From Rhodanobacter sp. (lineage in GTDB: Bacteria > Pseudomonadota > Gammaproteobacteria > Xanthomonadales > Rhodanobacteraceae), in the NCBI GenBank assembly GCA_004298505.1, contig SCRO01000047.1, positions 1 to 45,669 on the forward strand: a DNA stretch of 45,669 nucleotides, written 5' to 3'. The stretch's first letter is position 1. Each line of letters starts with the position of its first letter. The position numbers and the translations under genes were made by a program. The notes under the pieces were generated by a model. It saw only the letters and a program-made list of their open reading frames with translations, searched no databases and was not told the DNA's origin. This document shows positions 2,173 through 45,669 of the stretch, one piece after another.

Positions 2173-2296
2173 CAGCGGTGTTTCCTCGATCGATATCGTG
2201 AAGCATTGTTGCCGCAAGCGCCAATGCTTGCACGTCGCGCCACCAGGAGCGTGGGCGGTAGAAAGTTTGGATAGCATCATCGCAGCCCAAAGATTT

Positions 2297-3589: not shown

Positions 3590-3604
3590 GGTGGGTCGGC
3601 AGCA

Positions 3605-3630
3605 CACGACCCGCGTTCATGCGGGCCGTG
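3605..3630. terminator. Hairpin between the POT transporter and regB
   Basis: CACGACCCGC and GCGGGCCGTG form 10-nt arms with one mismatch and a 6-nt loop. It sits 16 bp after the stop of the peptide transporter gene and just before the regB start, with no U tract. It is probably a weak terminator or attenuator separating the two genes. Confidence 0.4.
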
Positions 3631-25904: not shown

Positions 25905-26155
25905 GTGCAGGTGAAAAGCCCGCGCCGAGGTGCCTGCGCAGTTCGAGCGGTTGGCCCGTTTCCTGGCAGGCCTGCTCGAGCAATTCCGGACGCAAAGGTG
26001 GTACCAAGACGGGTGCGGCAACGGCGGGTCTCGGAGGTGCCGGGGCGGTCGCGTCGTCAGGTCAAGTGATTGGTGCGGACCGCGTTGCGCCATGATCGTG
26101 TTCATCGACGATACGCCCTGCCGCTGTAACGCGCTTGGCACGAAAGTGTTTCGTT

Positions 26156-26166
26156 TCTGACACAGC
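26156..26166 (+). promoter_or_regulatory. Upstream motif, candidate activator site for the xoxF promoter
   Basis: TCTGACACAGC lies 89 bp before the first base of the -24/-12 promoter. The identical 11-mer is found at 38946-38956, 79 bp before the formaldehyde dehydrogenase promoter. It is a candidate half-site for the sigma-54 activator encoded at the right end of the window; the assignment is inferred. Confidence 0.5.
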
Positions 26167-26205
26167 CTTCACACCGGAATGCCCGGCGCACACGGCTGCT
26201 GGTTG

Positions 26206-26219
26206 CAAGTTGTTGAATT
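26206..26219 (-). promoter_or_regulatory. IHF-like site upstream of xoxF
   Basis: On the minus strand ATTCAACAACTTG fits the IHF consensus WATCARNNNNTTR with one mismatch. It lies exactly 39 bp before the sigma-54 element, the same spacing as its twin at 38986. IHF bending between activator and promoter is usual at sigma-54 promoters. Confidence 0.5.
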
Positions 26220-26244
26220 GCGGTTGGTCAACACGTGCGGATTC

Positions 26245-26260
26245 TGGCATGCGATCTGCA
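26245..26260 (+). promoter_or_regulatory. Sigma-54 (-24/-12) promoter of xoxF
   Basis: TGGCATGCGATCTGCA fits TGGCACGNNNNTTGCW: the invariant GG and GC have the required spacing and 11 of 12 defined positions are close or identical (C to T at 6, T to C at 12). It is repeated almost exactly at 39025. Transcription would start near 26271. Confidence 0.7.
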
Positions 26261-26473
26261 GCTAGCTTGGCAAGGCGACTTTGAAGATGCTGCCGACGGT
26301 AGTGCGGATACCGGTCTTGACACGGTGCAAAATCTTGTGTAGCGCTAGTACGTATCCATCCAAGTGCCCATCTGCGCGGGAACAGAACCCGGCCGCGTTG
26401 ATGGTCTCTTTCCACGGCCAAGGTGGGGTGAGCCGCGAAGTTGGGGCGCTACAAGAACCAGGAGCACGTATGC

Positions 26474-26491
26474 GGTCATCCACGGATGACC
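26474..26491. repeat. Inverted repeat in the xoxF leader
   Basis: GGTCATCC and GGATGACC are perfect 8-bp arms with a 2-bp centre, 48 bp before the xoxF start codon. It could be a repressor operator or an RNA hairpin acting on translation. Confidence 0.5.
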
Positions 26492-26538
26492 ATCCAGAAA
26501 TTTTGTTCAGCGACCTGCAGAGAGAGAGGGAGGTTCCC

Positions 26539-28491
26539 ATGAGTTCTCAAAATAGTGGCCCCACGCGCCAGTTCAGGTTCTACGTCACGGCGCTGGCTTG
26601 TCTTGGCTTGGTTGTCGGTGCGGCGTCGGCGGCTGGCGCGACAAGCGAAACGAGCGCGTCGGCAGCCATCGCCAAGAGCGCACAAAACCCTGGCTTGTGG
26701 CCCGCGCCGGGTCGCAACAACGACCTGACGCGTTTCAGCCCGCTGACGCAAATCAACACCAGCAACGCGGGCGATATGCAATTCAGTTGGAGTCAGTCGC
26801 TCAGTTCATTGCGCGGCCAGGAAGGCCAGCCGATCGTTGTGGAGGTTGGCGGCAAGCCGATGATGTTTTTGGTCAGCGGCTGGCCGAATGTCGTGCAGGG
26901 GCTGGATTTGTCCAACCCGGACAACCCGGTGACGGTCTGGAACTACGTCAAGAAAGACGGCCGTGACGACAGCGCCGTCGCTATCGCATGCTGCGACACC
27001 GTCAACCGCGGCCTCAACTACGCCGACGGCAAGGTGATCTTCCATACCCTGGACGGTTACCTGATCGCGCTGGATGCCTTGACGGGCAAGGTGGACTGGA
27101 GCGACAAGATCGCGCACACGGAGAAAGGCCAGACCATGACTGCCGCGGGCGTGATTGCCGGCAACAACGTGATCATTGGCTACGGCGGCGCTGAGCTTGC
27201 GGCGCGTGGCAGCATCGCGGCTTACTCGATCGCTACCGGGAAGAAGGTCTGGGGCTTCTTCAACAACGGCACTGCCAAGGACGTCGGCATGACCGCGGGC
27301 ACCAACAAGGCAGTTCCAAAGCACGGCACCCTGAAGACCTATCGTGGCGTTAATGAGTATCCGGAGGGTGAGTATCTGCGCGGCGGTGCGACGGTCTGGG
27401 GCTGGCTGAGCTATGACCCGAAGCTGAACCTGGTCTATTACGGTACCAGCAACCCTGGCACATGGAGCCCCACGTATCGCTGCAAGTACACCACGTGGGA
27501 GAAGTGCAACGACGGTACCCAGGACAACAAGTGGTCGCTGTCGATCATCGCGCGCAACGTGTCGACGGGTGAGATGGTGTGGGCGTACCAGCTGACCCCG
27601 TACGACGAGTGGGACTACGACGCTATCAACGAAAGTGTCCTCGTCAACATGGATATCGATGGCCAGAAGAATCGCCCCGTGCTAGTGCATTTCGACCGCA
27701 ACGGCTTTGCGTATGTGCTGGACCGCAGAACCGGCCAGTTGCTGCGCGCGCACAACTACGTTCCGGTGAACTGGGCCGAGAAGATCGACGTCGGCGGGAC
27801 CGATCGCCCGATCAAGGTCAAGGCGCACTCGCCGTTCAGCGTTGACAAAGCCGTGCAGGCGTGCCCGTCGGCCATGGGTGGCAAGGATCAGCAGCCGGTG
27901 GCGGTGGATCCGAGCAACCCGCAGGTCTTCTTCGTGCCGACCAACCAATGGTGCATGGAGGATACGCCGCTGAAGCGCACCAGTACGCAACAGGGCTCGG
28001 GTTACTCGTTCGCCAATGTGTACATGTACGAGCCCACACCTGGCCTTGCGGGCCAGGTCCAGGCCTTCGATGTCGACACCGGCAAGATCATCTGGAAGAA
28101 CCCCAACAAGTACCAGACTTGGGGTGGTGCGTTGGTCACGGCTGGCGGCGTGGTCTTCTATGGCGACATGGTGGGTGATTTCCGGGCTGTGGACGCCAAG
28201 ACCGGCAACGTCCTGTGGCAGCGCAAGCTGGGCTCGGGCATCATCGGCAACCCGATCAGCTACGCCGTCAACGGCCAGCAGTATGTGTCGGTGTTCACCG
28301 GGATTGGTGGCTGGAGCGGCCTGCCGGTTGCCGCTGGTCTGAACTTCAGCGACAAGTTCGGCGCGATCGGTGCGACCGCCATGGCCAAGGTCACCAACCT
28401 GAACCTCGTGCCGCAGGGTGGCACTCTGTATACGTTTCGCCTGGGCGGAGCGGAGCACCAGAACGTCGCGGACGCCGATACCGCGAAGTGA
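26539..28491 (+). CDS. xoxF: XoxF-type lanthanide-dependent methanol dehydrogenase (PQQ quinoprotein)
   Basis: A 650-residue periplasmic PQQ enzyme oxidising methanol (and possibly other short alcohols) to aldehyde or formate, passing electrons to a c-type cytochrome. A signal peptide precedes an eight-bladed propeller. The vicinal Cys pair that contacts PQQ is IACCDTVNRGLNYADGK (residues 151-152). The metal site includes GAEL, YGTSNPGTWS and TPYDEWDYDAINE: after the catalytic Asp (359) a second Asp (361) stands where MxaF has Ala; this Asp is the hallmark of lanthanide binding. AGGGAGG precedes the ATG at 26539. At 650 residues it is somewhat longer than typical XoxF (about 600). It heads the operon of accessory proteins below; PQQ synthesis genes are not in the window. 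Confidence 0.92.
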   Translation: MSSQNSGPTRQFRFYVTALACLGLVVGAASAAGATSETSASAAIAKSAQNPGLWPAPGRNNDLTRFSPLTQINTSNAGDMQFSWSQSLSSLRGQEGQPIVVEVGGKPMMFLVSGWPNVVQGLDLSNPDNPVTVWNYVKKDGRDDSAVAIACCDTVNRGLNYADGKVIFHTLDGYLIALDALTGKVDWSDKIAHTEKGQTMTAAGVIAGNNVIIGYGGAELAARGSIAAYSIATGKKVWGFFNNGTAKDVGMTAGTNKAVPKHGTLKTYRGVNEYPEGEYLRGGATVWGWLSYDPKLNLVYYGTSNPGTWSPTYRCKYTTWEKCNDGTQDNKWSLSIIARNVSTGEMVWAYQLTPYDEWDYDAINESVLVNMDIDGQKNRPVLVHFDRNGFAYVLDRRTGQLLRAHNYVPVNWAEKIDVGGTDRPIKVKAHSPFSVDKAVQACPSAMGGKDQQPVAVDPSNPQVFFVPTNQWCMEDTPLKRTSTQQGSGYSFANVYMYEPTPGLAGQVQAFDVDTGKIIWKNPNKYQTWGGALVTAGGVVFYGDMVGDFRAVDAKTGNVLWQRKLGSGIIGNPISYAVNGQQYVSVFTGIGGWSGLPVAAGLNFSDKFGAIGATAMAKVTNLNLVPQGGTLYTFRLGGAEHQNVADADTAK

Positions 28492-28550
28492 CGGCGCGTG
28501 CACGGTTGAGTGGTAGATAGTGTACAAACCACTGTTGCATGATGAAGTCC

Positions 28551-28577
28551 GCCGGGGTTGCCTGGTGCAACCCCGGC
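28551..28577. terminator. Strong hairpin after xoxF (attenuator or transcript stabiliser)
   Basis: GCCGGGGTTGC and GCAACCCCGGC form a perfect 11-bp GC-rich stem with loop CTGGT, 60 bp after the xoxF stop. It has no U run. It may reduce read-through into, or protect the 3' end of, the highly needed xoxF message. Confidence 0.6.
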
Positions 28578-28643
28578 ATTGATGCTGAAACGTCGCGTGC
28601 CAGCAGCGAACGTGCGAGTTCCTTTCAAAGTGCACTGCATGAC

Positions 28644-30506
28644 ATGAAATTCGGTATCGCAATATCGGTGGGATGCCTCGCGCTGATGGTGGCTGGACTG
28701 GCGTCGGCGCAGGAAAAAACCTATTACAACCTCGACCTAAAATTCAGCGAGATGACGGCGGCCGAAAGGAACGCCGCAAAAGAGGCCGCGCTACATCAGC
28801 AGATACGGCCGCTGACCGTCTGTGCGGACCCTGCGAACATGCCGTTTTCGGACCGCAATGGCGACGGCATCGACAACCAGATCGTCAAGGTGTTGGCCGC
28901 GGCCATGCATACGACGGTGGGGTTCTACTGGATGTCATACGTAAACTATGGGTTCCTGAAACGGGCATTCGGCACCGCGGCGGAGCCGCTGGGAAACTGC
29001 GATCTCGTGGTTGACATCCCGGCAAGTGTCTCGGACGTGCTGATGACCGAGCCGATCTACCGGTCGACATACGTTTTCGCGTCTCGCAAGGACAGCGGAA
29101 TCCATATCAAGAGCCTCACCGACCCTGCTCTCAGGAAACTCCGCGTCGGTGTTTACCAAACCTCCGCCTTGCGCCAGGCGCTCGCCGAAAACGGGATCAA
29201 GAACGGTGTCCACATCCTCACGGTCAGCTACGACACCGCAAGCAACCGTGGCGCCCAGCAGCAGTGGCGGCAAGTTCAACAGGTAGTGGACGGCCAACTC
29301 GACGTGGTGGGTGTGTGGGGCCCGTTTGCCGGTTATGCCAAGGCCCGGAAGCACGCGCCGATCGTGCTGCAACCGGTTAACCTGATGTCCAACGACGTGC
29401 AGTTGGAATACGCCATGGCCATCGGGGTGCGTGAAAACGACGTTGTTCTGAAATATGCACTGGACAATGCTCTGGATGCATCGGCGAGCAAGATCAAGGC
29501 CATCCTAGACGAATTCGGTGTTCCGTTGGTGCAATGCAGCGAATGCGTCGTCCAAGGCAACCTGCCATCGCATGGTTCCTATTCCATGGGTGCCAGCGCC
29601 TACGCGCGCTACCAGCAACCACTGGATCCGGATCTTACCCACATCGACAAGTCTCAAACAGCTCCAGGCCAGATCGTCACGCTACGGGACGTGAAAAAAT
29701 CGCTTGCGGCGGGCGCCAATCCGACTGCTGAGTTGGCGCAAGCCGTGGTGGCGTCCGACCCGGCGCGCATCAAGTATCTGGCCGCACATGGGGCGGACCT
29801 CAACGCACGCGACTCCATGGGCTCCACGCCGCTGATCAGTGCGGCCAGCGCTCGCGATTCCGCGGCCGTCAAGCTGCTGCTTCAGTTGGGCGCGGATGCC
29901 AACGCACGCAACGAGGGTGGCTTGACGCCGCTGATGGAGGCGGCCTATCGCGATCACGTGCCATCGGTGGAGGCGCTGCTGCAACACGGCGCCAGCCTGA
30001 CCGAGAAGGATCCCAGAGGATTGACCCCGCTCTGCATCGCGCTCGACAACCGCAGTTTCCGGGCCGCCACGGCGCTGCTCAATGCGGGGGCCTCGCCGAA
30101 CGTGGCATGCGGTGCCAATCGGTTGACGCCATTGATGATCGTGGCGAGGCATCTGGAGGCGCAGCAGAGCGGCAATGTTCCGGTCGACGGCGGCCTGTAT
30201 CTGAGCGACGGGGTTGCCCCGCAACAGGTTGGCAAGTTGCTGGTCAGCAAGGGTGCCGACGCGAATGCCCGGAGCAAGAGCGGCCTTACGGCCCTGATGG
30301 TCGCGGCCGGGCACGACAACGCGCCCCTGATCGGCTTGCTGATCCAGGCCGGGGCGAAAGTCGACGCTCGTGACGAAGACGGCAAGACCGCGCTCGATGT
30401 CGCCAAGGGAAATGGCAGCAATGCGGCGATACAGACACTCAACGTGATGACCCGTTTCGCGCCTGCACCAAGTTCGAGCGGTGCTGCGGTGGGGCCGCCA
30501 CGATGA
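28644..30506 (+). CDS. XoxJ/MoxJ-like periplasmic protein fused to ankyrin repeats
   Basis: A 620-residue protein. After a signal peptide (ending in GLASAQ), residues 50-300 are the quinoprotein-associated solute-binding-like domain: RPLTVCADPANMPFSDRNGDGIDNQI, GNCDLVVDIPAS, EPIYRSTYVF and LRVGVYQTSALRQAL. XoxJ proteins bind and help activate the dehydrogenase. From about residue 370 to 600 come five or six ankyrin repeats (GSTPLISAASARDSAAVKLLL, GLTPLMEAAY, GLTPLCIALD, LTALMVAAGHDNAPLIGLLI). The start at 28644 gives the signal peptide; an upstream frame extension to 28539 does not. Stop overlaps the next gene by 4 nt. The fusion suggests a docking platform in the periplasm. Confidence 0.82.
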   Translation: MKFGIAISVGCLALMVAGLASAQEKTYYNLDLKFSEMTAAERNAAKEAALHQQIRPLTVCADPANMPFSDRNGDGIDNQIVKVLAAAMHTTVGFYWMSYVNYGFLKRAFGTAAEPLGNCDLVVDIPASVSDVLMTEPIYRSTYVFASRKDSGIHIKSLTDPALRKLRVGVYQTSALRQALAENGIKNGVHILTVSYDTASNRGAQQQWRQVQQVVDGQLDVVGVWGPFAGYAKARKHAPIVLQPVNLMSNDVQLEYAMAIGVRENDVVLKYALDNALDASASKIKAILDEFGVPLVQCSECVVQGNLPSHGSYSMGASAYARYQQPLDPDLTHIDKSQTAPGQIVTLRDVKKSLAAGANPTAELAQAVVASDPARIKYLAAHGADLNARDSMGSTPLISAASARDSAAVKLLLQLGADANARNEGGLTPLMEAAYRDHVPSVEALLQHGASLTEKDPRGLTPLCIALDNRSFRAATALLNAGASPNVACGANRLTPLMIVARHLEAQQSGNVPVDGGLYLSDGVAPQQVGKLLVSKGADANARSKSGLTALMVAAGHDNAPLIGLLIQAGAKVDARDEDGKTALDVAKGNGSNAAIQTLNVMTRFAPAPSSSGAAVGPPR

Positions 30507-31747
30507 AACGGGGTATCGCCACTATTATCGCGGCCATGCTTGCATCGACGCTGGCTGCGGCTGCCTTGGCGACGCCAGCCGGTGCGCAGGGCGCGAGCGG
30601 CAGCGCGGCGAAAAGCGCCGAAGTCGTCACGCATTACGCGTATCTGGGCAAGGAGTACCGCGAGCCGGCGCCATTGTCGCTGCTCAAGCCGGCGGTCATT
30701 CCAGACGAGGGGCTTGCAGGTGTGCGCCTCGGAACCAAGGACAACAACCTGGCGGGAAAATTTCTGGGACTGAAGTTTGTCCTGGATGAGACGATGGTGC
30801 CGCAAGGTGGCGACGTGGTCGCGGCGGCCAAAAAATTGCTGGCCTCCGGTCAGCGCCTCATCATCGCTGACTTGAGCGCCACGGATTTGCTCGCGGTCGC
30901 AGACTTGCCGCAAGCGAAAGACGCGATCATTTTGAACATTCGCGCGCGGGATGATGTGCTGCGTCAAACCCAGTGTCGTCTCGATGTTTTCCACTTGATT
31001 CCGAGCGACGCGATGCTGACCGACGCATTGGCGCAGTATCTGGTGTGGAAGAAGTGGACGCGGTGGTTTCTCGTGCGCGGCAAGCACCCGGCCGACATCG
31101 AGTATGCCAACGACATCAAGCGTTCCGCCAAGCTCTATGGTGCCAAGATCGTGGCCGAACGTGCGTACGAGCTGCAAACCGGCGCGCGCCGCGTGGATAC
31201 CGGCTACCAGGAGATTCAGACGCAAATGCCGATGCTGACGCGCGGTGTGCCAGATTATGACGTCGCCTTCGTGGCCGACGAGACCAATTCATTCGGGCTA
31301 TACCTGCAATATCGGACCACCGATCCGCGGCCCGTCGTGGGCACGGACGGCCTGGAGGCGACGGCGTGGGGCGCGGCGTATGAGTCCTACGCGGCGCAGA
31401 CGCTGCATGACGATTTCCGGAAACTTGCGCGTCGTGAGATCACGGTGCGGGACTACGAGGGCTGGCTTGCGGCCCATCTGCTGGAGACGGCCGTGAAGCA
31501 TGGAAACGCCAGCAATGTCGATGCGATCCGGGAGTACATCAGCTCGGACAACCTCAAGCTCGCGGGGTACAAGGGCGAGGGCATGAACTTCCGCTCGTGG
31601 GATAACCAGTTGCGTCAGCCGATCCTGCTGATGGATCAGCTATCCCTGGTGTCGATCTCGCCGCAGCCGGGTTTTCTGCACCCCAAGTACAACACCGATA
31701 CCTTAGGGTTCGACCAACCGCAAAGCCTGTGCAAGTTCTCGAAATGA
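30503..31747 (+). CDS. PQQ-dependent alcohol dehydrogenase-associated ABC-type substrate-binding protein
   Basis: A 414-residue exported protein (signal peptide ending in PAGAQG). It resembles the branched-chain-type binding proteins found only with PQQ dehydrogenase systems: ITHYAYLGKEY-like start, GVRLGTKDNNLAGKFLG, a central RDDVLRQTQCRLDVFHLIPSDAMLTDALAQYL, LVRGKHPADIEYANDIKRSAKLYGAKIVAER, and the end HPKYNTDTLGFDQPQSLC. The ligand is unknown. It likely works with the ABC ATPase and permease at 36945-38692. ATGA overlaps connect it with both neighbours. Confidence 0.82.
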   Translation: MKRGIATIIAAMLASTLAAAALATPAGAQGASGSAAKSAEVVTHYAYLGKEYREPAPLSLLKPAVIPDEGLAGVRLGTKDNNLAGKFLGLKFVLDETMVPQGGDVVAAAKKLLASGQRLIIADLSATDLLAVADLPQAKDAIILNIRARDDVLRQTQCRLDVFHLIPSDAMLTDALAQYLVWKKWTRWFLVRGKHPADIEYANDIKRSAKLYGAKIVAERAYELQTGARRVDTGYQEIQTQMPMLTRGVPDYDVAFVADETNSFGLYLQYRTTDPRPVVGTDGLEATAWGAAYESYAAQTLHDDFRKLARREITVRDYEGWLAAHLLETAVKHGNASNVDAIREYISSDNLKLAGYKGEGMNFRSWDNQLRQPILLMDQLSLVSISPQPGFLHPKYNTDTLGFDQPQSLCKFSK

Positions 31748-32736
31748 AGACAGTCAGCCACAATGGACGGCACACGCGGGTTGCCGCGATGAGTTTGCTG
31801 CTACTGATGCTTGCGGCACCATCCGCGTGGTCCGCGATGCTGTTCGTCAGCAACGAGCGCGGCAATACCGTGACGGTGCTGGACAGTAATACGCTGAAGA
31901 CGATCGCGACCATACCCACGGGTCAGCGGCCGCGCGGCATCGTGGCAGGGCCCCATGGTAAATGGGTGTACGTGTGCGTGGGTGATAGCAACCGAATCGA
32001 TGTCATCGATGTATCCAAGCTTGCCGTGACGCGTCATCTGCCGTCGGGGGCGGACCCGGAATTGCTGGCTGTGGGCAACGACGGCAACCGGGTCTACATC
32101 GCCAACGAGGACAACGCGCAGGTCACCGTGCTGAACGCGGAGACCGGCAAACTGCTTGCGGGGATTCCCGTTGGCTCGGAACCCGAGGGCATGCGCGTCA
32201 GCCCGAACAACCAGATCACGGCGGCAACGGCCGAAGGCAGCAGCCTTGTACATTTCATCGACAACAAGACGCTGAAATTGGTCGCCAGCGTACTGGTGGG
32301 TACGCGCCCGCGCGTGGTCACGTTCACGCCCGACGGCCGCTACGTCTGGGCATCCTCGGAGGTCGGCGGCACGGTATCGGTGATCGATGTGGGTACCCAC
32401 CAGGTCGTGCAGACGATCAGCTTTGCGATCCCCGGGATGCGCGCCGAGTTCATCCAGCCGGTAGGTATCACGATGGCGAAGGACGGCTCGGAAGCGTTCG
32501 TCGCGCTCGGACCGGCGAACCATGTTGCCGTCGTCAACACCAAGACATACAAAGTGAGCGACTACATCATCGTCGGACAACGGCCTTGGCATATGGCGTT
32601 ATCTCCCGACGGCTCGAAGCTTTACACCGTCAACGGTTTCACCAACGATGTGACGGTGGTCGATGTCAAATCGCTCAAACCCGAGGTTTCGGTACACGTG
32701 GGTCGCTTGCCATGGGGCATCGCGGTCGTGCCCTGA
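31744..32736 (+). CDS. PQQ-catabolism-associated YVTN beta-propeller protein
   Basis: A 330-residue exported protein with a signal peptide (ending in SAWSA) and about seven YVTN-type propeller repeats: AMLFVSNERGNTVTVLDSNTLKTIATIPTG, then KWVYVCVGDSNRIDVID, NRVYIANEDNAQVTVLNAETGK, and SKLYTVNGFTNDVTVVDVKSLK. Family members sit in PQQ dehydrogenase clusters with the binding protein encoded just before. The function is unproven; a periplasmic scaffold or electron-transfer aid is plausible. Translation couples to the preceding gene by ATGA. Confidence 0.85.
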   Translation: MKTVSHNGRHTRVAAMSLLLLMLAAPSAWSAMLFVSNERGNTVTVLDSNTLKTIATIPTGQRPRGIVAGPHGKWVYVCVGDSNRIDVIDVSKLAVTRHLPSGADPELLAVGNDGNRVYIANEDNAQVTVLNAETGKLLAGIPVGSEPEGMRVSPNNQITAATAEGSSLVHFIDNKTLKLVASVLVGTRPRVVTFTPDGRYVWASSEVGGTVSVIDVGTHQVVQTISFAIPGMRAEFIQPVGITMAKDGSEAFVALGPANHVAVVNTKTYKVSDYIIVGQRPWHMALSPDGSKLYTVNGFTNDVTVVDVKSLKPEVSVHVGRLPWGIAVVP

Positions 32737-32826
32737 GCGGTTGCCTCGCGACGTGGTGTGACGGTGGTGCGCAAGCACCGGCAGGAGAGGGTTGATTCGT
32801 ATTTGGTATTCACAAAGGAGAGTCAA

Positions 32827-33564
32827 ATGTTCCGCAAGACCATCTATGGCTTCACTGTCATCGCAGTTGCCGTGGCCGTGGCCGGTATCGGCCCGGTTCT
32901 CGCCAATAATAGCCCCGTCAGTTTGGCGGCTGCTCCGGCCAGGGCCGAAAGCGTCCACGTGCCGGCGACGTACGAGTCGATGGACACGAGCCACGACGGA
33001 ATGGTGACCGAAAAGGAAGCCATGGCCGCCATGCCGAACCTGAACTTCAAAGCCGCTGATACGAATGGTGACGGTCAGCTGGATCGGGTCGAATATCTGG
33101 ATTTGCAGGAAAAAATCGCGAACGGTACCTGGACAAACGCGGTTCCCAAAAAGGAATTCGTAAAGACGATAGAAGGCTACGATGACAACCCGGTGGATGT
33201 GGTCACGAAGGCCCCGAAAGGTTCTTTGAAGAATCCCTACGATCCGGCAAACACCACCGTAGCCGCCGAGGGTCGCCAGCAATATCTCAATCACGGTTGC
33301 AATGGCTGCCACGGCGGCAATGGCGGCGGGGGTATATGTCCGCCACTCAACAACGGCGTATGGATTTATGGCCAGAGCGACGACACTTTGTTCCGGCTCG
33401 TGTCACTGGGAAGCAAGAAGCTGCAGGAGTCGGGTTACTCGCGGGTAAGCCCGGAGACGCCCGCCTTGATGCCGCAGATGGGCGGCACGAACGTGAAAAA
33501 AGCCGGCGACCTTTGGAAAATTATCGCCTGGATCAAATCGATGAACGCGAAGAAGAGTAACTAG
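32827..33564 (+). CDS. Cytochrome c (XoxG/cL-like) with two N-terminal EF-hands
   Basis: A 245-residue exported cytochrome, presumably the electron acceptor of XoxF. The haem site is CNGCH (158-162), followed by the cytochrome cL-like ICPPLNNGVWIYG and DTLFRLVSLG, with the axial Met in ALMPQMGG. Between the signal peptide and the haem domain lie two canonical EF-hand loops: DTSHDGMVTEKE (53-64) and DTNGDGQLDRVE (78-89), separated by only 13 residues. Most cL cytochromes lack such a domain. It would bind calcium or lanthanide. AAGGAG precedes the ATG at 32827; the gene follows the propeller gene after 90 bp. Confidence 0.85.
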   Translation: MFRKTIYGFTVIAVAVAVAGIGPVLANNSPVSLAAAPARAESVHVPATYESMDTSHDGMVTEKEAMAAMPNLNFKAADTNGDGQLDRVEYLDLQEKIANGTWTNAVPKKEFVKTIEGYDDNPVDVVTKAPKGSLKNPYDPANTTVAAEGRQQYLNHGCNGCHGGNGGGGICPPLNNGVWIYGQSDDTLFRLVSLGSKKLQESGYSRVSPETPALMPQMGGTNVKKAGDLWKIIAWIKSMNAKKSN

Positions 33565-34221
33565 ACGAGCATGGGCCGTGCCCCGATCCGGTTTCGGGAC
33601 GCTCGGCGGTCCCGCGTGGGTGAAAGCCCCAGCCGAGCGGCATTGATCGGAGGTGCTGGCTCGGCAGTACGACGCGATGAGATCGGTCGCTGGTGGTGCA
33701 TGTGCCTGGCAGCAACGCGGGAGAAGCCGGTACCCGAGCCGGCAGTCCGTGAAATGTCGCAGTCATGGTGGCCGCTGCACCCAATCCGCAGCGGATGGGC
33801 GCGCGTTGGTGGGAATCGCGACCATTGGCCATCTTCAAGCTGCACCAGGTCGCCCGTGTCCGACGTTGTTGCGCTTGTCAACTCGCGAGGTGCCGCCAAC
33901 TCCGGTGCGGGTGCGTATCTCCATGACGTACGGTTGCGGCGCGTGGCGGTGATCCATCGCTACCCTCGCCACCTCCGCGTGGCTGCTTGGCGCTCCACGT
34001 TGAACTTGATTCGAATTTTCGTCGGCTTGATATCCACCGATGCACCCGGGCAAGGAGTGCCTGCCCCGGAACCTGTGCGGGACGACTCTCTCTCGTCTCG
34101 CCCCGCACGGTCCGCTACGCTGCGAGAAGGTCAGGTCTTCGCGGATCGAGAAAGCCCAGGATGACTCTTCGGGATGGGTAGGGAAGGTGGTTACATGAAA
34201 GGCTGGCAGGGGAGAGTGAAC
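33565..34221. other. Long intergenic region with stem-loop
   Basis: A 657-bp gap splits the xox genes from the ABC importer. CGCTCGGC (33600-33607) and GCCGAGCG (33632-33639) form a perfect 8-bp stem 35 bp after the cytochrome stop, probably the operon end. I found no copy of the sigma-54 module and no recognisable coding sequence in the rest. Confidence 0.5.
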
Positions 34222-35235
34222 ATGGCGTCGACTGATTTCGTCACGCGCGTTTTTGCGCTGATTTATGCCGCGCTCCTCACGATGATGCCAAGTGCCGCCG
34301 CGCGCGCAGAGGTTGCGCACGATGTCCCCGTACTGCGCGTCGGGGTGCTTGAATTCGGCACGGTCGGCTGGGAGATCGATACCGTCCAGAGGCTGGGTCT
34401 CGCACGCAGACACGGCATCCGGTTGGAGGTGGTGCCACTGGCGTCGGAGAACGCCATGAAGGTGGCGTTGCTGAGTGGCAGCGTCGACCTTATCGTCTCG
34501 GACTGGCTTTGGGTCGCGACGCTCCGATCCCGCGGTCAGGATTACCAGTTTGTTCCGTATTCGAAGGCGGTCGGTGCCGTCGTCGCCAATCCGAAGGCGG
34601 GAATCAAGTCGCTCGCCGACCTCAAAGGCAAACGAGTCGGTGTCGCCGGCGGCCCGGTGGACAAGAGTTGGTTGATCGCGCGTGCTTACGCGCGCAAGGA
34701 GTACGGGATTGACCTGAAGTCCGCCGCGAAGCCACAGTTTGCCGCAGCGCCGTTGATCAATCACCTGATGCTCGACGGCGAGCTTCCTGCCGCGATCAAC
34801 TTCTGGCAATACAGCTCCCGCCTCGTTGCACAGGGGATGCAGCCGGTGATCACGGTGGAGCAGATGCTCAAGGGATTGGGTGTCAAGACCGTCCCGCCGC
34901 TGCTGGGTTGGGTGTTTTCGCAACGTTGGGTACAAACCCACGGCGATGCCTTGCGCGCCTTCATCGCCGCCACGTACGATGCCAAGCAGGAGCTGGCCCG
35001 CTCGGATGCGGCCTGGCAGCCGCTGAGGAGCAAGATCAAACCCGAAAACGACGCGGTCTTCGCCGCGATCCGACAGGGTTACCGGGACGGCATCGTTGAC
35101 CACTTCGGCGCGCCCGAAATCCACGCGGCTGGACAGCTGTTCCACCTGGTCGCTGAAGAAAGCCACGGCGAACTCACCAGTGGAACGAGCGAGTTGCCAG
35201 CGGGTGTGTTTTGGAGCGGATTTCGTCGGCCATGA
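34222..35235 (+). CDS. NitT/TauT-type ABC transporter substrate-binding protein
   Basis: A 337-residue exported protein (signal peptide ending in AAARAEV). LRVGVLEFGTVGWEIDTVQRLGLARRHGI, VALLSGSVDLIVSDWLWVA and LADLKGKRVGVAGGPVDKSWLIARAYA are the pattern of SsuA/TauA/NrtA-like proteins. Ligand unknown; relatives bind sulfonates, pyrimidine precursors, nitrate and others. GGGGAG lies just upstream of the ATG at 34222; the ATG at 34195 is an alternative. It overlaps the permease start by 4 nt. The setting within a XoxF island suggests import of a cofactor-, metal- or substrate-related compound. Confidence 0.85.
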   Translation: MASTDFVTRVFALIYAALLTMMPSAAARAEVAHDVPVLRVGVLEFGTVGWEIDTVQRLGLARRHGIRLEVVPLASENAMKVALLSGSVDLIVSDWLWVATLRSRGQDYQFVPYSKAVGAVVANPKAGIKSLADLKGKRVGVAGGPVDKSWLIARAYARKEYGIDLKSAAKPQFAAAPLINHLMLDGELPAAINFWQYSSRLVAQGMQPVITVEQMLKGLGVKTVPPLLGWVFSQRWVQTHGDALRAFIAATYDAKQELARSDAAWQPLRSKIKPENDAVFAAIRQGYRDGIVDHFGAPEIHAAGQLFHLVAEESHGELTSGTSELPAGVFWSGFRRP

Positions 35236-36083
35236 GGTTCTTCCGTCGTCGCTTTGGCCCGGGTGACGTGCCCCGAACCATCGGCAGGACGGAGCCGCGC
35301 GCGGTGGCGCGGGCATGGTGGCGCGGGCTTCGATTACCGTGGGGGCGCAGCTGGCTGTGGCGGAGCGCGTCGCTCATCGGCCTGGTGGCGGTTTGGGAAA
35401 TTGCGGCGCGACTCGCGGGCAGCAACATGCTGCCGACGCCGGTCGCGGTGCTCGCCGCGGTGTATCGCTACACCCGCAGCGGTCAGCTTCCGCTGGAGTT
35501 GGGGATCACGCTGGCACGGGTGGTCGCTGCGTTCGTCGTGGCCATGACCGTGGGTGTCGTGATCGGCTTCATGATGGGCCGTTCGCGCAAGCTCAACCTG
35601 TTGCTGGATGGCCTGCTGGTGCTTGCGCTCAACATCCCGGCGCTGGTCATCATCATCTTGTGCTACCTATGGCTCGGACTCACGGAAGTCGCCGTGATCG
35701 TGGCCGTGGCCCTCAACAAGATCCCGGTCGTGGTCGTGACAACGCGCGAAGGTACGCGGGCCATCGACGCGCGCTTGCTGGCGGTGGCGCAGGTGTATCA
35801 CGTTCCGCGTACAGTGACGTTGTATCGGGTGATGCTGCCGCAGCTTTATCCGTACCTCATGGCCTCTGCCCGCAACGGCCTGGCGTTGATCTGGAAAATC
35901 ATGCTGGTTGCCGAGCTGCTCGGACGAAGCAATGGCGTCGGTTTTGAATTGTCCGTATTTTTCCAGTTTTTCGACATCACCAGTATTCTGGCCTACACAC
36001 TGGCGTTTGCTGCTGTCGTCATGGCCATTGAAGCCGGTGTGATGCGGCCTCTCGAAAAACGCTTGACGCGGTGGCGCGGATGA
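35232..36083 (+). CDS. NitT/TauT-type ABC transporter permease
   Basis: A 283-residue permease with about six membrane helices after a basic cytoplasmic N-terminus of about 45 residues. The binding-protein-dependent inner-membrane signature is seen as EGTRAIDARLLAVAQVYHVP (EAA loop), and LMASARNGLALIWKIMLVAELLGRSNGVG is the following conserved stretch. The ATG at 35232 overlaps the previous stop (ATGA), so I prefer it to the upstream TTG at 35211. It partners with the ATPase encoded next. Confidence 0.88.
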   Translation: MRFFRRRFGPGDVPRTIGRTEPRAVARAWWRGLRLPWGRSWLWRSASLIGLVAVWEIAARLAGSNMLPTPVAVLAAVYRYTRSGQLPLELGITLARVVAAFVVAMTVGVVIGFMMGRSRKLNLLLDGLLVLALNIPALVIIILCYLWLGLTEVAVIVAVALNKIPVVVVTTREGTRAIDARLLAVAQVYHVPRTVTLYRVMLPQLYPYLMASARNGLALIWKIMLVAELLGRSNGVGFELSVFFQFFDITSILAYTLAFAAVVMAIEAGVMRPLEKRLTRWRG

Positions 36084-36880
36084 AAGGGTTGAACATCCAT
36101 GTCATCGAAAAACGTTTCGACGGTGTGCTGGTGCTGACCGATATCGACGTCACCATCACCGGCGGTGAATTTGTCGCCGTGGTCGGGCCGTCCGGTGTGG
36201 GCAAGACCACACTGTTGAACATGGTTGCCGGTCTGGACGCCGACTATACGGGTGCGATTCGCTACGACGGAGTGCCGTTGGCCGAGCCCGGCCAGTCGCC
36301 CCCCGGCCTGGGCATGGTATTCCAGGAGCCACGGCTGATGCCGTGGCTTACGGTCCGCGACAACGTTCGGCTGGCGGAAGCCGAGCGTCTGGCGCGCGAT
36401 TGCGGCTATGTTTCGCGCGCGGATGCGATGCTCGAAGATGTTGGACTGGGTGCGTCGCGCGAGGTCTGGCCGGGCCAGCTTTCCGGTGGTATGCAGCGTC
36501 GCGCCGCGCTGGCGCGGGCGTTCGTGGTCGAGCCCTGGTTGCTGCTGATGGACGAGCCGTTCGTGTCGCTCGACCTGCCGGCAGCCAACCAGCTGCGTGA
36601 GTTGCTGCGGCGGTTGCGCGCGCGGGTGCGGCCACTGGTATTGTTTGTTACCCACAATGTAAATGAGGCATTGGTGCTCGCCGATCGCATATTGTTTCTG
36701 GGTGATACGCCGGCACGCGTGGTCCTGGACTATCGTGTCGAGCAAACGGGTAGTCACGATCTGAACAGTCCTGAGGTTGCTGCTCTCAGCCGTCGGCTGC
36801 TGGCACGACATCAAGGGCTGCTTTCCGAAGTGGCCGGGGTTGACGTGGACGAAGGCCGGCGTGGCAAGGAGGGTCTGTGA
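36080..36880 (+). CDS. NitT/TauT-type ABC transporter ATPase
   Basis: A 266-residue ATPase: Walker A GPSGVGKTTLLNMV, Q-loop MVFQEPRLMPWLTVRDNV (the QEPRLMPWLTV form is typical of SsuB/TauB), signature LSGGMQRRAALARAF, Walker B LLLMDEPFVSLD, H-loop FVTHNVNEAL. It powers uptake through the preceding permease. Start ATG 36080 overlaps the permease stop by 4 nt. Confidence 0.92.
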   Translation: MKGLNIHVIEKRFDGVLVLTDIDVTITGGEFVAVVGPSGVGKTTLLNMVAGLDADYTGAIRYDGVPLAEPGQSPPGLGMVFQEPRLMPWLTVRDNVRLAEAERLARDCGYVSRADAMLEDVGLGASREVWPGQLSGGMQRRAALARAFVVEPWLLLMDEPFVSLDLPAANQLRELLRRLRARVRPLVLFVTHNVNEALVLADRILFLGDTPARVVLDYRVEQTGSHDLNSPEVAALSRRLLARHQGLLSEVAGVDVDEGRRGKEGL

Positions 36881-36944
36881 AGTCTGGTGCCTCGGTGTGG
36901 TGGTTGTCGCTGTGGGCCTCGCGCCCGCGGCATGGCGTACGGCG

Positions 36945-37745
36945 ATGAACGCGCCCGGCGAGACATCCATGCCCGCGTCGCCACTACCGGGACAGGCCTC
37001 ACTCGCACTCGCGGTGGAGGAGGTCAGCAAGTCCTACGGCTCGGTCAAGGCGCTGGACCGAGTGTCCCTGCACGTCGCACGCGGCGAGTTCGTGGCCCTG
37101 CTCGGACCGAATGGCGCCGGAAAAAGTACGCTGTTCCAACTGCTCACCGGATTGTTCGTGCCTGACGCCGGACGCATCGAGGTGGCGGGTTTCGACATGC
37201 GCCATCAGGCGCGGCGGGCACTCGCGTGCCTGGGCGTGGTATTCCAGCAGGCGACGCTGGACCTGGACTTGAGCGTCGTTGCCAACCTGCGTTTCCATGC
37301 ACGGCTGCACGGGATGGGGCGTGCTGCGCGCGCGCGCATCGATGCGGAGTTGCAGCGCATCGGCTTGACCGCGCGGGCCACAGATCGGGCGCGGACGCTT
37401 TCTGGTGGCAATCGCCGCAGGGTTGAACTGGCCCGCGCACTGCTGCACGACCCGGTGGTACTGCTGATGGACGAGCCTACGGTGGGGCTCGATCCCGCCT
37501 CGCGCGCGCAACTCGTGGAGTATGTCCACTCGCTGTGCACGCATCGCGACGTCGGTGTGCTGTGGGCGACGCACTTGGTGGACGAGGCCGAATCCGCCGA
37601 CCGGGTCATCATCCTGGACAAGGGGCACTGGATCGCTTCCGGCACCACCGCGGCATTGCGCGAGCGCACCGGCCAGCGTTCGCTGCGCGACGCCTTCCTC
37701 GAGCTGACCGGGGAAGCTTCGGTAGAGCAAGAGGAGGCGGTCTGA
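36945..37745 (+). CDS. PQQ-dependent alcohol dehydrogenase-system ABC ATPase
   Basis: A 266-residue ATPase of the type found in PQQ dehydrogenase clusters (ABC-2 exporter style): Walker A GPNGAGKSTLFQLLTGLF, Q-loop VVFQQATLDLDLSVVANL, signature LSGGNRRRVELARALL, Walker B VVLLMDEPTVGLDP, H-loop WATHLVDEA. The start is uncertain: ATG 36945 or 36969, both without a strong ribosome binding site. The stop overlaps the permease start (TGATG). It may energise export or extraction of a compound sensed by the binding protein at 30503. Confidence 0.87.
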   Translation: MNAPGETSMPASPLPGQASLALAVEEVSKSYGSVKALDRVSLHVARGEFVALLGPNGAGKSTLFQLLTGLFVPDAGRIEVAGFDMRHQARRALACLGVVFQQATLDLDLSVVANLRFHARLHGMGRAARARIDAELQRIGLTARATDRARTLSGGNRRRVELARALLHDPVVLLMDEPTVGLDPASRAQLVEYVHSLCTHRDVGVLWATHLVDEAESADRVIILDKGHWIASGTTAALRERTGQRSLRDAFLELTGEASVEQEEAV

Positions 37746-38692
37746 TGCACGCGAGGCGTGGATCGCAGCGAGGGACGCCCGGCGGCGGTCCGCAGCAGGG
37801 ACGCGACTTGGCGGCTCCAGTTCGAGCGGGGCCCGGGGCCGGGTTGGCTTCGGGCAAGCCTGCCATGAGCTCCACCATATCGATCGTGAGCCACGTCCTG
37901 CAGGCGCTGGTGGCGCTTTCCTCGCGCGAAACGGTCAAGTTCATGCACCAGCGCGGGCGATTGCTCTCCGCGGTGGTACGGCCGAGCCTGTGGCTGCTGA
38001 TTTTTGCGGCTGGTTTCCGCAACGTCTTCGGCGTCTCCGTGATTCCGCCGTACTCGACCTATATCGAGTACCAGGTCTACGTCGTGCCAGGGCTGGTGGG
38101 CATCGTCCTGCTGTTCAACGGCATGCAGTCTTCGCTGGCGATGGTCTACGACCGCGAGATGGGATTGATGCGGCTGCTGCTGACAGCACCGCTGCCGCGC
38201 TCGGTGTTGCTGACGTGCAAGCTGCTCGCGGGTACCTTCCTGTCGATCCTGCAGGCCTATGCATTTCTCGCGATCTGCGCGCTGTTCCAGCTCGACCTGC
38301 CGTGGTGGCCCGGCCTGCTGTTGGCCTTGCCGGCGATGTTTCTGACCGGGCTGATGCTGGGCGCGATGGGCTTGCTGGTGTCCGTTTACATCAAGCAGAT
38401 CGAGAATTTCGCCGGCGCGATGAACTTCGTGATTTTTCCGATGTTTTTCCTGTCGCCGGCCTTGTATCCACTGTGGAAATTGCAGGAATCCGGGGCCGAA
38501 TTCGTCTACCAATTGGCCCGCATCAATCCGTTTACCTACGGCATCGATCTGATCCGCTACGCGATGTACGGGCAGATGAACTGGCTTGCGTGTGGCGTGG
38601 TTGTCGCCGCGCTCATCGTCTTTCTGGGGCTGGCGATATGGGGGTACGATCCGCAGCGCGGCATGGTCAGGCACAAGCACCAGGGCGGTTGA
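37745..38692 (+). CDS. ABC-2 type permease of the PQQ-dehydrogenase-associated system (PedC-like)
   Basis: A 315-residue membrane protein with six helices. After an unusual, weakly conserved 40-residue Arg/Gly-rich start, VKFMHQRGRLLSAVVRPSLWLLIFAAGFRN begins the ABC-2 domain; GIVLLFNGMQSSLAMVYDREMGLMRLLLTAPLPR and FFLSPALYPLWKL are family features. An internal ATG at 37865 (MSSTISIVSHV) fits better with relatives, but TGATG coupling supports 37745. It pairs with the ATPase encoded before it. Confidence 0.85.
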   Translation: MHARRGSQRGTPGGGPQQGRDLAAPVRAGPGAGLASGKPAMSSTISIVSHVLQALVALSSRETVKFMHQRGRLLSAVVRPSLWLLIFAAGFRNVFGVSVIPPYSTYIEYQVYVVPGLVGIVLLFNGMQSSLAMVYDREMGLMRLLLTAPLPRSVLLTCKLLAGTFLSILQAYAFLAICALFQLDLPWWPGLLLALPAMFLTGLMLGAMGLLVSVYIKQIENFAGAMNFVIFPMFFLSPALYPLWKLQESGAEFVYQLARINPFTYGIDLIRYAMYGQMNWLACGVVVAALIVFLGLAIWGYDPQRGMVRHKHQGG

Positions 38693-38945
38693 GCAAACCC
38701 TCAAGTCTGTCGTGGTCGACGCCAGCCCACATCCCGCGTGCGCGGCCGCCGCGCGTGTCTGGAGCTGGCAGAGGCGTGCTGCCACGCGGCGCCCGGGTTC
38801 CGCCATCCAGGCAACGAATTTTCTGTTTTTCAGTCGCTCACAGCCCGCCGTTGTGGGGAGGCCGTGGATTTTCAGGCCCCAGTCGAAAAGTCGTGCAACG
38901 TCCAATGGTTGTGTTGTGGCGCGCGCGACACACACCCGTCTCGAA

Positions 38946-38956
38946 TCTGACACAGC
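38946..38956 (+). promoter_or_regulatory. Upstream motif, second copy
   Basis: TCTGACACAGC, identical to 26156-26166. Here it lies 79 bp from the promoter, exactly 10 bp (one DNA turn) closer than in the xoxF module, so it would face the same side of the helix. Confidence 0.5.
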
Positions 38957-38985
38957 ACTCGTGACGGACGGATAGGTGACAGCTC

Positions 38986-38999
38986 CAAGTTGCTGAATT
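38986..38999 (-). promoter_or_regulatory. IHF-like site, second copy
   Basis: CAAGTTGCTGAATT differs by one base from the xoxF copy. The minus strand ATTCAGCAACTTG fits WATCARNNNNTTR with one mismatch. Spacing to the promoter is 39 bp, as in the xoxF module. Confidence 0.5.
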
Positions 39000-39024
39000 C
39001 CCGCGTGCAAGCTTCTCCGGAAAC

Positions 39025-39040
39025 TGGCATGTGATATGCA
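39025..39040 (+). promoter_or_regulatory. Sigma-54 (-24/-12) promoter of the formaldehyde dehydrogenase operon
   Basis: TGGCATGTGATATGCA keeps the invariant GG and GC at correct spacing and differs from the xoxF promoter at two bases. Predicted start of transcription is near 39051. Confidence 0.7.
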
Positions 39041-39054: not shown

Positions 39055-40308
<1,254 letters not shown>

Positions 40309-40338: not shown

Positions 40339-40917
40339 ATGCCCAAGGTATCCATTCATCCCATGGTCGACAACGGCGTCACGGTGCACTCCAAGCCGAG
40401 ATTTTCAGGCGGTACGCTGGTCTGCAAGTGCAAGACCGACCCGGTCGAGGTGACGGTCGACAGCGACTACCTGTTCAATCACCTGTGTGGCTGCACACAG
40501 TGCTGGAAACCGGACGGCGCAACGTTCTCGATGCTGGCTGCGGTACCGCGCGACAAGGTCAAGGTGACCAGGCACGAGGAAAAGCTGCAGGTGGTTGATC
40601 CGAGCAAGGTCCTGCACCGTTACGCGTGCAAGGACTGCGGCGTGCACATGTACGGCGTGGTCGACAAACCCGACCACGTGTTCCACGGCTTCGCCTTCAT
40701 CCATCCGGAACTGTCCAGGGACGCGGGCTACGCGCCACCAACGTTCGCGGCGTTTGTATCTTCTGCTATCGATGGCGGTGTCGCGCCGTCCGACATGGCG
40801 TGGTTGCGGGGACGGTTGCGCGAGCTGGGCGTCGAGCCGTACGACTGCTATTCCCCCGAGTTGATGGACATCGTCGCTACGCACGCGGCGAAAGCATCCG
40901 GGGTACTGCAAGCCTGA
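40339..40917 (+). CDS. gfa: Gfa: glutathione-dependent formaldehyde-activating enzyme
   Basis: A 192-residue zinc protein proposed to speed the condensation of formaldehyde with glutathione, giving the substrate of FrmA. The CxC and CxxC zinc motifs are LVCKCKTDP and CGCTQCWKPDGATFS, with a further CKDCGVHMYG. AGGAG lies upstream of the ATG at 40339. Together with frmA it forms a two-gene formaldehyde removal operon. Confidence 0.93.
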   Translation: MPKVSIHPMVDNGVTVHSKPRFSGGTLVCKCKTDPVEVTVDSDYLFNHLCGCTQCWKPDGATFSMLAAVPRDKVKVTRHEEKLQVVDPSKVLHRYACKDCGVHMYGVVDKPDHVFHGFAFIHPELSRDAGYAPPTFAAFVSSAIDGGVAPSDMAWLRGRLRELGVEPYDCYSPELMDIVATHAAKASGVLQA

Positions 40918-42439: not shown

Positions 42440-44097
42440 TTGAAGTTTCATCGTAGCCCATGTCGAGTTGGTCGGCGCAGCAAGACACTCTGCATGACAA
42501 TTCTTGCCGTCTTGTCCGGCGTGGCGTTGGCTGACCCACCGGTGCAGCAACTCGGAGAAATAGTCGTGGTCGGGATTACTCCCTTGCCCGGATTGAACGT
42601 GCCGGCGAATCAAGTGCCGTTGAATGTGCAAACGGCACAAGCGGACGACCTTGAGCATGTGCACGGGCAATCCCTGACCGATCTGTTGCAGCGAAACTTC
42701 CAGGGTGTGAATCTGACGCAGTCCCAAGGCAACCCGTGGCAGAGCAATCTGTCCTTTCATGGTTTCACACTGTCGCCGTTGCTTGGCTCGCCTTCGGGCA
42801 TTTCGCTCTATGTGGATGGTGTGCGCCAGAACGAACCGTTCGCCGAGACGATGAACTGGGAAGTGATACCCGGTTTTGCGATCCGCAATGTCGAGCTGAT
42901 TCCAGGCTCCAGTCCGGTTTACGGCCGCAATACCCTGGGTGGTGCGCTGCTGCTGACCAGCAAAAGCGGCTTCACCGATGCGGGCGGGGCGTTTGCCATA
43001 TCCGGCGGCTCCTGGGGGCGCATCCAGGAGAGCGCGGAATTTGGCGCGTACAGCCACACATTTGGGTTCTACGCGGGGGTTGGCAGCGACTACGAGAGCG
43101 GCTGGCGTAGCTATTCGCCTAGCCGTGTGCAGCAGCTCTTCCTGCGTGCGGACTGGGAGCCCGACGATGCCACCGACATGGCACTGAGCTACACCGGCGC
43201 GCATGCCAAGTTGTTTGGCACGCAGACGCTACCGATAAACTGGGCAGATACGCCCAAGGCCGCCTTCACCTGGCCCGATTATTTTGTCAACAACCTCAGC
43301 CAGTTCAACTTGCGAGGTTCGCGCCAGCTGAGCGACGACTGGGCATTGCAGGCCAATGCCTACCTGCGCATTTCACAGGGCCGTGGCTTCAACAGCAACA
43401 CCAACGACTACGCTAGTTACGATGCCGACGGCGGTCCGCCGGGTTACGCTGCGAACGGCCCTTTCGACACCGGTTCGGTCGGCCGGTATTTCTACTCAGG
43501 TGTGACCCCGCCGTACGATCCGCTCAGTCCGTCGGCAACGATCAACAACGTGCCGGCCTCGAATGTGCTGGCCAACGTGCGTACGCGCGGCTACGGCGGA
43601 TCGGTCCAAGTCGTGAACAACGCCAGCGTGTGGGGACACGACAACCAGTTCACGGCGGGCGTGAGCCTCGATGCTGGAAGCACGGTGTTCAGCCAGTTCG
43701 GCCAGCCGGCCTTCTTTCCGTACGACACCGGCCGTAGAGGCGAGAGCTTCGGGTTACTGCCGTTCGCGCTGGACCCGAGTACCGATGCAGGGACCTCAAA
43801 CCGCGGTTACGGCGTGTATTTGGTGGATGTATTCCGCCTGACGGATGCGATCCACGTCACGCTCGGCGGCCGTTACGACTTCAGCGAGCTCGCCGTGAAC
43901 GACCGGTCCGGCCAGTCGCCGGCCATCAATGGCCGGCAGACATTCCACCGCTTCGATCCCAGCGCGGGGTTGACCTGGGCGTTCACGCCGACCTTCGGCG
44001 CGTATGTGAACTACGATGAAGGCATGCGCACGCCGACACCGATCGAGGTCGAGTGCGCCGACCCTGCTGCGCCTTGCGCATTGCCGAACGATTTTAG
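42440..44097 (+). pseudogene. TonB-dependent outer-membrane receptor, C-terminus lost
   Basis: About 550 residues of a TonB-dependent receptor. A signal peptide leads to the TonB box region GEIVVVG, the plug (TDLLQRNFQGVNLTQSQGN, SLYVDGVRQNEPFAE, NVELIPGSSPVYGRNTLGGAL) and the barrel up to YVNYDEGMRTPTPIEVECADP and CALPNDF. At 44097 the sequence switches to another receptor in another frame, so the last strands are missing and the frame closes at 44191 with unrelated residues. A TTG at 42440 is used; the ATG at 42494 is possible. Before decay it probably imported a chelate; a lanthanide-chelate role (LutH-like) is only a guess from context. Confidence 0.78.
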
Positions 44098-44660: not shown

Positions 44661-44873
44661 CTGGTCGGTGTGAACGCAAGCTACAGCTTCTGACTGGCGT
44701 TTCAGCGGACGACCGATGGGGGCGCATGGCGCTTTCCCCCGTGCACGCACGGGCATGTCGACCTTGTGAACGCGAATCGGACTCACGCGAACCGCTTGCA
44801 AGCCAGCGCTTGGGTGCAGCTTCTGGCTGGGCCGTGGTGTCATGCTGCGGAATGTCAGCTGGTGCTCGTCTTC

Positions 44874-45669
<796 letters not shown>

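Follow-up and report, generated by a model that had tools for sequence, protein, structure and literature searches.

The 45,669-base stretch analysed here (the window; contig stretch C110) belongs to a Rhodanobacter genome of 3.78 Mb in 139 contigs (G000); the genus follows from named relatives at 87–93% identity. It carries xoxF, the gene of a pyrroloquinoline quinone (PQQ) methanol dehydrogenase, at the head of a gene cluster, followed by frmA and gfa, the genes of formaldehyde removal. Part of the gene of a sigma-54 activator, or enhancer-binding protein (EBP), lies 4 kb downstream of gfa, at the end of the window. The intergenic regions preceding xoxF and frmA share a module of two tandem dyads, a box resembling a site for integration host factor (IHF) and a -24/-12 element (Table 1). 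We consider it likely that both regions are sigma-54 promoters under one EBP, which would co-induce the methanol dehydrogenase operon and formaldehyde removal. Co-induction of the two by the linked activator had been proposed in a sequence-only reading of the window, and motif conservation, the presence of an RpoN gene and the co-occurrence of the EBP support it.

Both regions contain CTGGCATG-N5-TGCA, and the GG and GC doublets of TGGCAY-N6-TGCW are present at both -24/-12 elements. The spacer had been read as N4, which is wrong; with N5 the fit to sigma-54 is better. The pattern YTGGCAYG-N5-TGCW has 12 matches in the whole genome, the window elements being two of them, and the reversed pattern has five. 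Transcription would be expected to start near 26271 (xoxF) and 39051 (frmA). RpoN is encoded in the same genome (one PF04963 match, on contig C26).

The upstream activating sequence (UAS) TCTGACACAGC reported in both regions is real, occurring exactly at 26156 and 38946 and nowhere else in the 3.78 Mb genome; with up to two mismatches, its 13 occurrences in the window are at chance level (12.98 expected). The motif is thus shared as claimed, but the 11-mer is only one arm of a dyad, and the tandem pair had been overlooked. The dyad consensus is TGT-N2-CG-N4-CG-N2-ACA (TGTNNCGNNNNCGNNACA), with two tandem copies per promoter, 22 bp apart in the window. The same spacing is found in both xoxF1 orthologs (L003, L004), and a spacing of 24 bp in four frmA regions of relatives; perfect copies of the frmA dyad are found in ANJX3, for example TGTCCCGCACGCGGCACA and TGTCACGAATCCGATACA. 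Sites of sigma-54 activators usually lie about 80–200 bp upstream, and the tandem dyads start within this range, 87–120 bp before the TGG of the -24 element. At all eight promoters with the module the dyad pair (0–3 mismatches) beats each of 1000 dinucleotide shuffles, and the best of 25 controls has five mismatches. A search for further regulon members by the dyad alone was rejected as unspecific (seven places in the own genome, six for the reversed pattern).

The two regions also agree in geometry as had been described: the distance from box to TGG is equal, and that from proximal dyad to TGG differs by exactly 10 bp (98 bp for xoxF, 88 bp for frmA). The middle box CAAGTTGYTGAATT occurs exactly in the window only at 26206 and 38986, and eight times with up to three mismatches (3.23 expected). 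Box plus promoter in fixed order, a post-hoc pattern applied to the window and to individual loci, is found twice in the window and in none of 100 shuffles. In a more general form, CAA-N4-YTGAAT with a free N4 core, the box stands at -39 or -40 in eight of eight module promoters. The description of an IHF-like box holds for a shared box at a fixed distance; every copy, however, has at least one mismatch to the IHF consensus WATCARNNNNTTR, as given in the available part of PMC8899819. A predicted IHF site is the likely identity of the box. It is conceivable, although we favour it less, that some other protein binds the box, or that the activator makes a third contact there: all eight boxes deviate from the IHF consensus at one common position (GAAT versus GATW), and the G012 copy sits, as judged by eye, within a perfect GTGATTGAATCAC palindrome. 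Yet most conserved bases agree with the IHF consensus (CAA, then YTGA..T) around a free four-base spacer, and a position between enhancer and promoter is typical of IHF in the general model outlined in the accessible text of PMC8899819.

Conservation was scored in a set of 45 Rhodanobacter genomes that includes the window's own. Duplicates with identical matches were counted once (G060 with G066, ANJX3; G030 with G061, MJ130820A). The template consisted of the 49 positions identical between the two window sites, was fixed on the window alone and was compared with 300 shuffles per region. Lack of the motifs at orthologous loci had been named as a refutation of the proposal; they are kept, with their spacing, at six of seven orthologous upstream regions of frmA or of xoxF of the window's type (xoxF1), and at none of 26 control frmA regions. 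These six (xoxF1 of ANJX3 and MJ130820A; frmA of ANJX3, G030, G010 and G012) score 33–39 of 49, with no shuffle as good in any region (shuffle maxima 29–30). The controls score at most 27, which is the score of the second frmA of the own genome (C52). They comprise this second copy and 25 of 30 frmA loci, the window's own, the test loci L065, L066 and L079, and L082 (second ANJX3 copy) being excluded; 14 other frmA places lay outside the comparison. Four controls (L078, L080, L081, L083) come from genomes with the EBP but with an operon of a different xoxF (xoxF2). A sigma-54-plus-dyad pattern, which demands TGCA at -12 and has TGCT promoters outside its scope, returned nine rows from the 45 genomes, corresponding to eight promoters in five genomes, all of xoxF1 or frmA: both in G000, ANJX3 (G066) and MJ130820A (G030), and frmA alone in G010 and G012. 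There was no other match in the 45 genomes, and the reversed control gave none; recovery of these eight is by construction, the absence of others is not. Alignment invariance points the same way, although partly by circularity: motif positions are invariant at 33 of 39 versus 54 of 135 others for frmA (five genomes), and at 34 of 39 versus 50 of 143 for xoxF (three genomes). Just upstream of xoxF1 in Hyphomicrobium (L005) and in metagenome-assembled genomes (MAGs) of Methylophaga (L006) and a member of Proteobacteria (L008), no strict sigma-54 match was found, so that the enzyme is not generally under this type of control. The leaders of L006 and L008, from other genera, have ACGCTATCCGTAAT in common (by eye).

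The sigma-54 activator noted at the end of the window is confirmed by its GAFTGA loop, AAA+ sigma-54 domain and Fis-type helix-turn-helix (HTH). Its gene runs off the contig and resumes on contig C50 with an exact overlap of 120 bases; the ANJX3 ortholog reads GAFTDA. The N-terminal part, which we take to be AcoR-like in appearance, has no GAF match and a weak PAS_9 match below cut-off, and the best NCBIfam names, PrdR and DhaR, are both below cut-off. Close orthologs (at least 57% identity) are present in 11 of the 45 genomes; matches were found in 14, of which G062, G068 and G069 (37–38%) fall below this threshold. Among 36 genomes examined for both genes, the ortholog is found in seven of the eight with xoxF-like genes and in three of the 28 lacking xoxF (G011, G012 and G017, the first and last less than 90% complete). 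The exception, G032, has an xoxF-like gene (41% identity) and no EBP ortholog; its locus has no TGGCAY-N6-TGC on the strand of the gene, and a looser pattern has one match about 0.5 kb upstream. EBP and frmA are on one contig in eight of the 11 genomes (G000, G066, G026, G012, G010, G015, G024, G005) and on separate draft contigs in G030 and G011, and G017 is without an frmA match.

Several observations weigh against control of both promoters by one EBP through this module. The seventh region, xoxF1 of FW021_bin.58 (G010), is without it (222 of 300 shuffles as good) and has another sigma-54 site together with an xoxF2 signal-peptide remnant. In G015, G026 and G005, the xoxF2 promoters keep the -24/-12 element, but their template scores are reached by 250, 298 and 11 of 300 shuffles, a misfit despite EBPs 64–91% identical to that of ANJX3. 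Their dyad pairs are weaker as well (reached by 33, 5 and 61 of 1000 shuffles, respectively), as is that of the xoxF2-type promoter of G010 (53); G024, where the xoxF2 start lies beyond the contig edge, was left out of the promoter counts. The proximal frmA dyad is poor, with three mismatches, in G010 and G012, and G012 has the EBP and the frmA module yet no xoxF at E 1e-100. Mismatches to the IHF consensus number one in seven of the eight boxes and two in frmA of G030. Finally, the sites being scored had also served to refine the consensus of dyad and box, so that the genome pattern scan, the dyad-pair test and the alignment invariance are partly circular; only the 49-position template is independent of this refinement.

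Part of these observations bears on whether the dyads of genuine sigma-54 promoters are bound by another regulator, namely a LuxR-type protein, an activator encoded on C48 or C122, or the Fis-HTH response regulator at 1585–2307. We regard this as unlikely. The misfit of the EBP-bearing xoxF2 loci to the UAS template speaks for it, as do the histidine kinase gene within the ANJX3 cluster, the kinase and 240-aa receiver-plus-Fis-HTH regulator at the opposite end of the window, and the precedent of sigma-54 with a LuxR-type regulator at exaA of Azospirillum brasilense, described in passages of PMC12826043 and PMC6115532. In addition, two paralogous EBPs are encoded in the genome, on contigs C48 (L120) and C122 (L140), beside sigma-54 sites; the former neighbours a cluster of PQQ dehydrogenase, aldehyde dehydrogenase and lactate dehydrogenase genes, the latter exaC. 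However, the linked EBP tracks the xoxF and frmA loci across the genus, the sigma-54 sites adjoining the paralogs (exaC on C122; the dehydrogenases on C48) lack good dyads, and no LuxR-type gene was found among the window proteins scanned, which represent part of the window's open reading frames (ORFs). This genome may commonly place alcohol oxidation under sigma-54. It is highly improbable that the resemblance to -24/-12 is accidental and that the conserved blocks are operators of a repressor or a sigma-70 activator, with transcription from other starts. In favour are the length of the xoxF leader, which would be about 270 nt, and the conservation of a block beside the xoxF start codon, but neither upstream region has a match to the sigma-70 consensus, the element stands at a fixed distance from the other boxes and is matched in seven of seven EBP-bearing xoxF loci with readable upstream sequence (G000, ANJX3, MJ130820A, G010, G026, G015, G005), and the sole xoxF-like locus without the EBP (G032) is without it.

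Table 1. Genes and predicted regulatory elements of the window
Feature	Position	Strand	Remarks
Distal dyad of xoxF, TGTAACGCGCTTGGCACG	26125..26142	+	2 mismatches to TGTNNCGNNNNCGNNACA; predicted activator site
Proximal dyad of xoxF, TGTTTCGTTTCTGACACA	26147..26164	+	1 mismatch; covers most of UAS TCTGACACAGC (26156-26166)
IHF-like box of xoxF, CAAGTTGTTGAAT	26206..26218	-	39 bp before -24 TGG; -39 also in xoxF1 orthologs L003, L004
Predicted sigma-54 -24/-12 element of xoxF, CTGGCATGCGATCTGCA	26244..26260	+	orthologs L003:9822, L004:120
xoxF, lanthanide-type PQQ methanol dehydrogenase, WDYD motif	26539..28491	+	closest solved relative 7o6z
XoxJ-like periplasmic binding protein with ankyrin repeats	28539..30506	+	TIGR03871 at residues 92-331; ankyrin matches C-terminal
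PQQ-ADH-associated ATP-binding cassette (ABC) substrate-binding protein	30503..31747	+	TIGR03863
PQQ-associated beta-propeller protein	31729..32736	+	TIGR03866
EF-hand and cytochrome c fusion, weakly XoxG/MoxG-like	32758..33564	+	see text
ABC importer: NMT1-type binding protein, permease, ATPase	34174..36880	+	–
PedABC-type ABC transporter: ATPase (TIGR03864), permease (TIGR03861)	36777..38692	+	listed ORF ends; true starts probably later
Distal dyad of frmA, TGTGGCGCGCGCGACACA	38915..38932	+	0 mismatches; predicted activator site
Proximal dyad of frmA, CGTCTCGAATCTGACACA	38937..38954	+	2 mismatches; reads TGTCACGAATCCGATACA in ANJX3 and G030
IHF-like box of frmA, CAAGTTGCTGAAT	38986..38998	-	39 bp before -24 TGG
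Predicted sigma-54 -24/-12 element of frmA, CTGGCATGTGATATGCA	39024..39040	+	orthologs in L065, L066, L068, L079
frmA, S-(hydroxymethyl)glutathione (formaldehyde) dehydrogenase	39181..40308	+	TIGR02818, 712.7 bits vs cut-off 543.95
gfa, S-(hydroxymethyl)glutathione synthase	40339..40917	+	TIGR02820
Sigma-54 activator, C-terminal part	44874..45669	-	GAFTGA loop, AAA+ lid, Fis-type HTH; remainder on contig C50

The product of the gene at 26539 is an XoxF-type enzyme, for which lanthanide dependence and activity on methanol are predicted. Its top structure matches are 7o6z, 4mae and 6oc5, and the stretch DEWDYDAINE aligns with their WDYD; presumably 7o6z is an XoxF1 and the extra Asp of WDYD acts at the metal site. 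The cytochrome c encoded at 32758–33564 carries two EF-hands at its N-terminus (DTSHDGMVTEKE, DTNGDGQLDRVE), which match lanmodulin weakly (24.2 bits versus the NCBIfam cut-off of 135) and are joined to a heme domain with weak likeness to MoxG. Three relatives have the same domain fusion; an electron acceptor that binds metal and serves a rare-earth enzyme would merit attention. The second frmA of the genome (C52:80634-81746) is 82% identical and has no module; 43 of the 45 Rhodanobacter genomes have exactly one frmA at this threshold. The TonB-dependent receptor at 42440–44938 consists of two ORFs in the same frame split by a stop (44191/44234), the second part PqqU-like, and may be an interrupted gene. 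On the minus strand at 1585–3607, the 240-aa response regulator (receiver and Fis-type HTH, no AAA+) adjoins the histidine kinase, a pair that we take to resemble the redox pair RegA/RegB. Towards its 3' end (26420–26538), the xoxF leader is well conserved in four genomes, even where the promoter has been replaced. An RNA switch in this leader was considered and dropped, since the leader folds no better than shuffles (z from -0.71 to 0.07) and an Rfam scan of the four leader sources found only a tRNA.

Other genomes of the genus suggest how the two-promoter arrangement arose. In G015 and G026, a different XoxF (xoxF2; about 42% identical, WDYD kept), an XoxJ-like gene, a heme stretch with two CxxCH motifs and frmA are encoded on one contig, and this run sits behind a single sigma-54 site. 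Gene order is the same in G005 and G024, interrupted by contig ends. None of the frmA genes of these four genomes has TGGCAY-N6-TGC within 700 bp. At L007 9607–10000 (G010, the FW021_bin.58 MAG), a sigma-54 promoter of xoxF2 type precedes the xoxF1 cluster, together with the beginning of xoxF2; this remnant of 21 residues, 95% identical to G015, is a gene-replacement scar. Upstream of xoxF1 in ANJX3 (L003 8581–9545) there are an xoxJ-like gene in truncated form and a reading frame for a cytochrome, which are probably the remains of an xoxF2 operon. The larger xoxF1 cluster would thus have taken over an older xoxF2-frmA locus, and frmA, separated to a distance of 12 kb, would have retained co-control through its own copy of the module.

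In the mechanism that we propose for co-induction, the EBP, AcoR-type as far as can be told, would control both promoters by binding the two tandem dyads of each. The DNA would be bent at the CAA-N4-YTGAAT box, probably by IHF, which would loop the EBP onto the sigma-54 polymerase, and ATP hydrolysis would open the promoter. The N-terminal domain of the EBP would sense the signal, which may be methanol, formaldehyde or another alcohol or aldehyde related to them. Products of the xoxF-xoxJ-cytochrome-PedABC operon would make periplasmic formaldehyde, which those of frmA-gfa would remove; with one signal to one EBP, both units would be raised together. The protein bound at each element, the inducer, the operon limits and the joint induction of the two units are what we infer here. 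A bolder and more tentative version is that a one-component sigma-54 activator senses methanol or formaldehyde itself and sets xoxF and frmA-gfa together, that in these Rhodanobacter the enzyme is switched by substrate or toxic product instead of by a lanthanide two-component system, and that the switch was copied to frmA when the new xoxF cluster broke the older xoxF-frmA operon. If control by a sigma-54 activator is true, a widespread rare-earth enzyme has one more control logic, and a single regulator ties formaldehyde production to formaldehyde removal. We know of no twin-dyad module common to exaA and a formaldehyde dehydrogenase.

A soil labelling study, in its available part, places Rhodanobacter among minor or weakly labelled phylotypes. 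No sigma-54 control of xoxF is reported in the accessible parts of the literature searched (PMC12403871, PMC5874634, PMC6115532, PMC6778391, PMC3404531, PMC12997753); subscription papers lie mostly outside this search, so that the negative is weak evidence of absence. The systems described there and elsewhere resemble the proposed one in part. The exaA gene of Azospirillum brasilense Sp7 is controlled by sigma-54 and the LuxR-type EraR, according to the passages available (PMC12826043, PMC6115532). Its likeness is sigma-54 control of a PQQ (quinoprotein) alcohol dehydrogenase; unlike here, the activator is a LuxR-type response regulator and the enzyme is ExaA rather than XoxF. BmoR at the bmo promoter of Thauera butanivorans is an alcohol-responsive sigma-54 EBP with an inverted-repeat UAS and a proposed IHF bend, but its target is an alkane monooxygenase and the UAS lies 193 bp upstream (PMC8899819, in excerpt; likeness by description). 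The MmoR-dependent soluble methane monooxygenase (sMMO) promoters of methanotrophs likewise combine sigma-54, an EBP adjoining a C1 oxidation operon and a -24/-12 element of the form YTGGCACGrNNNTTGCW (PMC5874634, in part), but methane monooxygenase is controlled, not methanol dehydrogenase. The lanthanide switches MxcQE/MxbDM/MxaB, MxaY and PedS2/PedR2 regulate XoxF- or PedH-type dehydrogenases; unlike the present case, they are two-component systems or single parts of such (the orphan regulator MxaB, the kinase MxaY), with no sigma-54 EBP described in the sections available of PMC6115532. Relative to the available literature, the predicted control of sigma-54/EBP type at xoxF would be new, whereas sigma-54 at exaA and EBPs at methane and alkane monooxygenases are already known.

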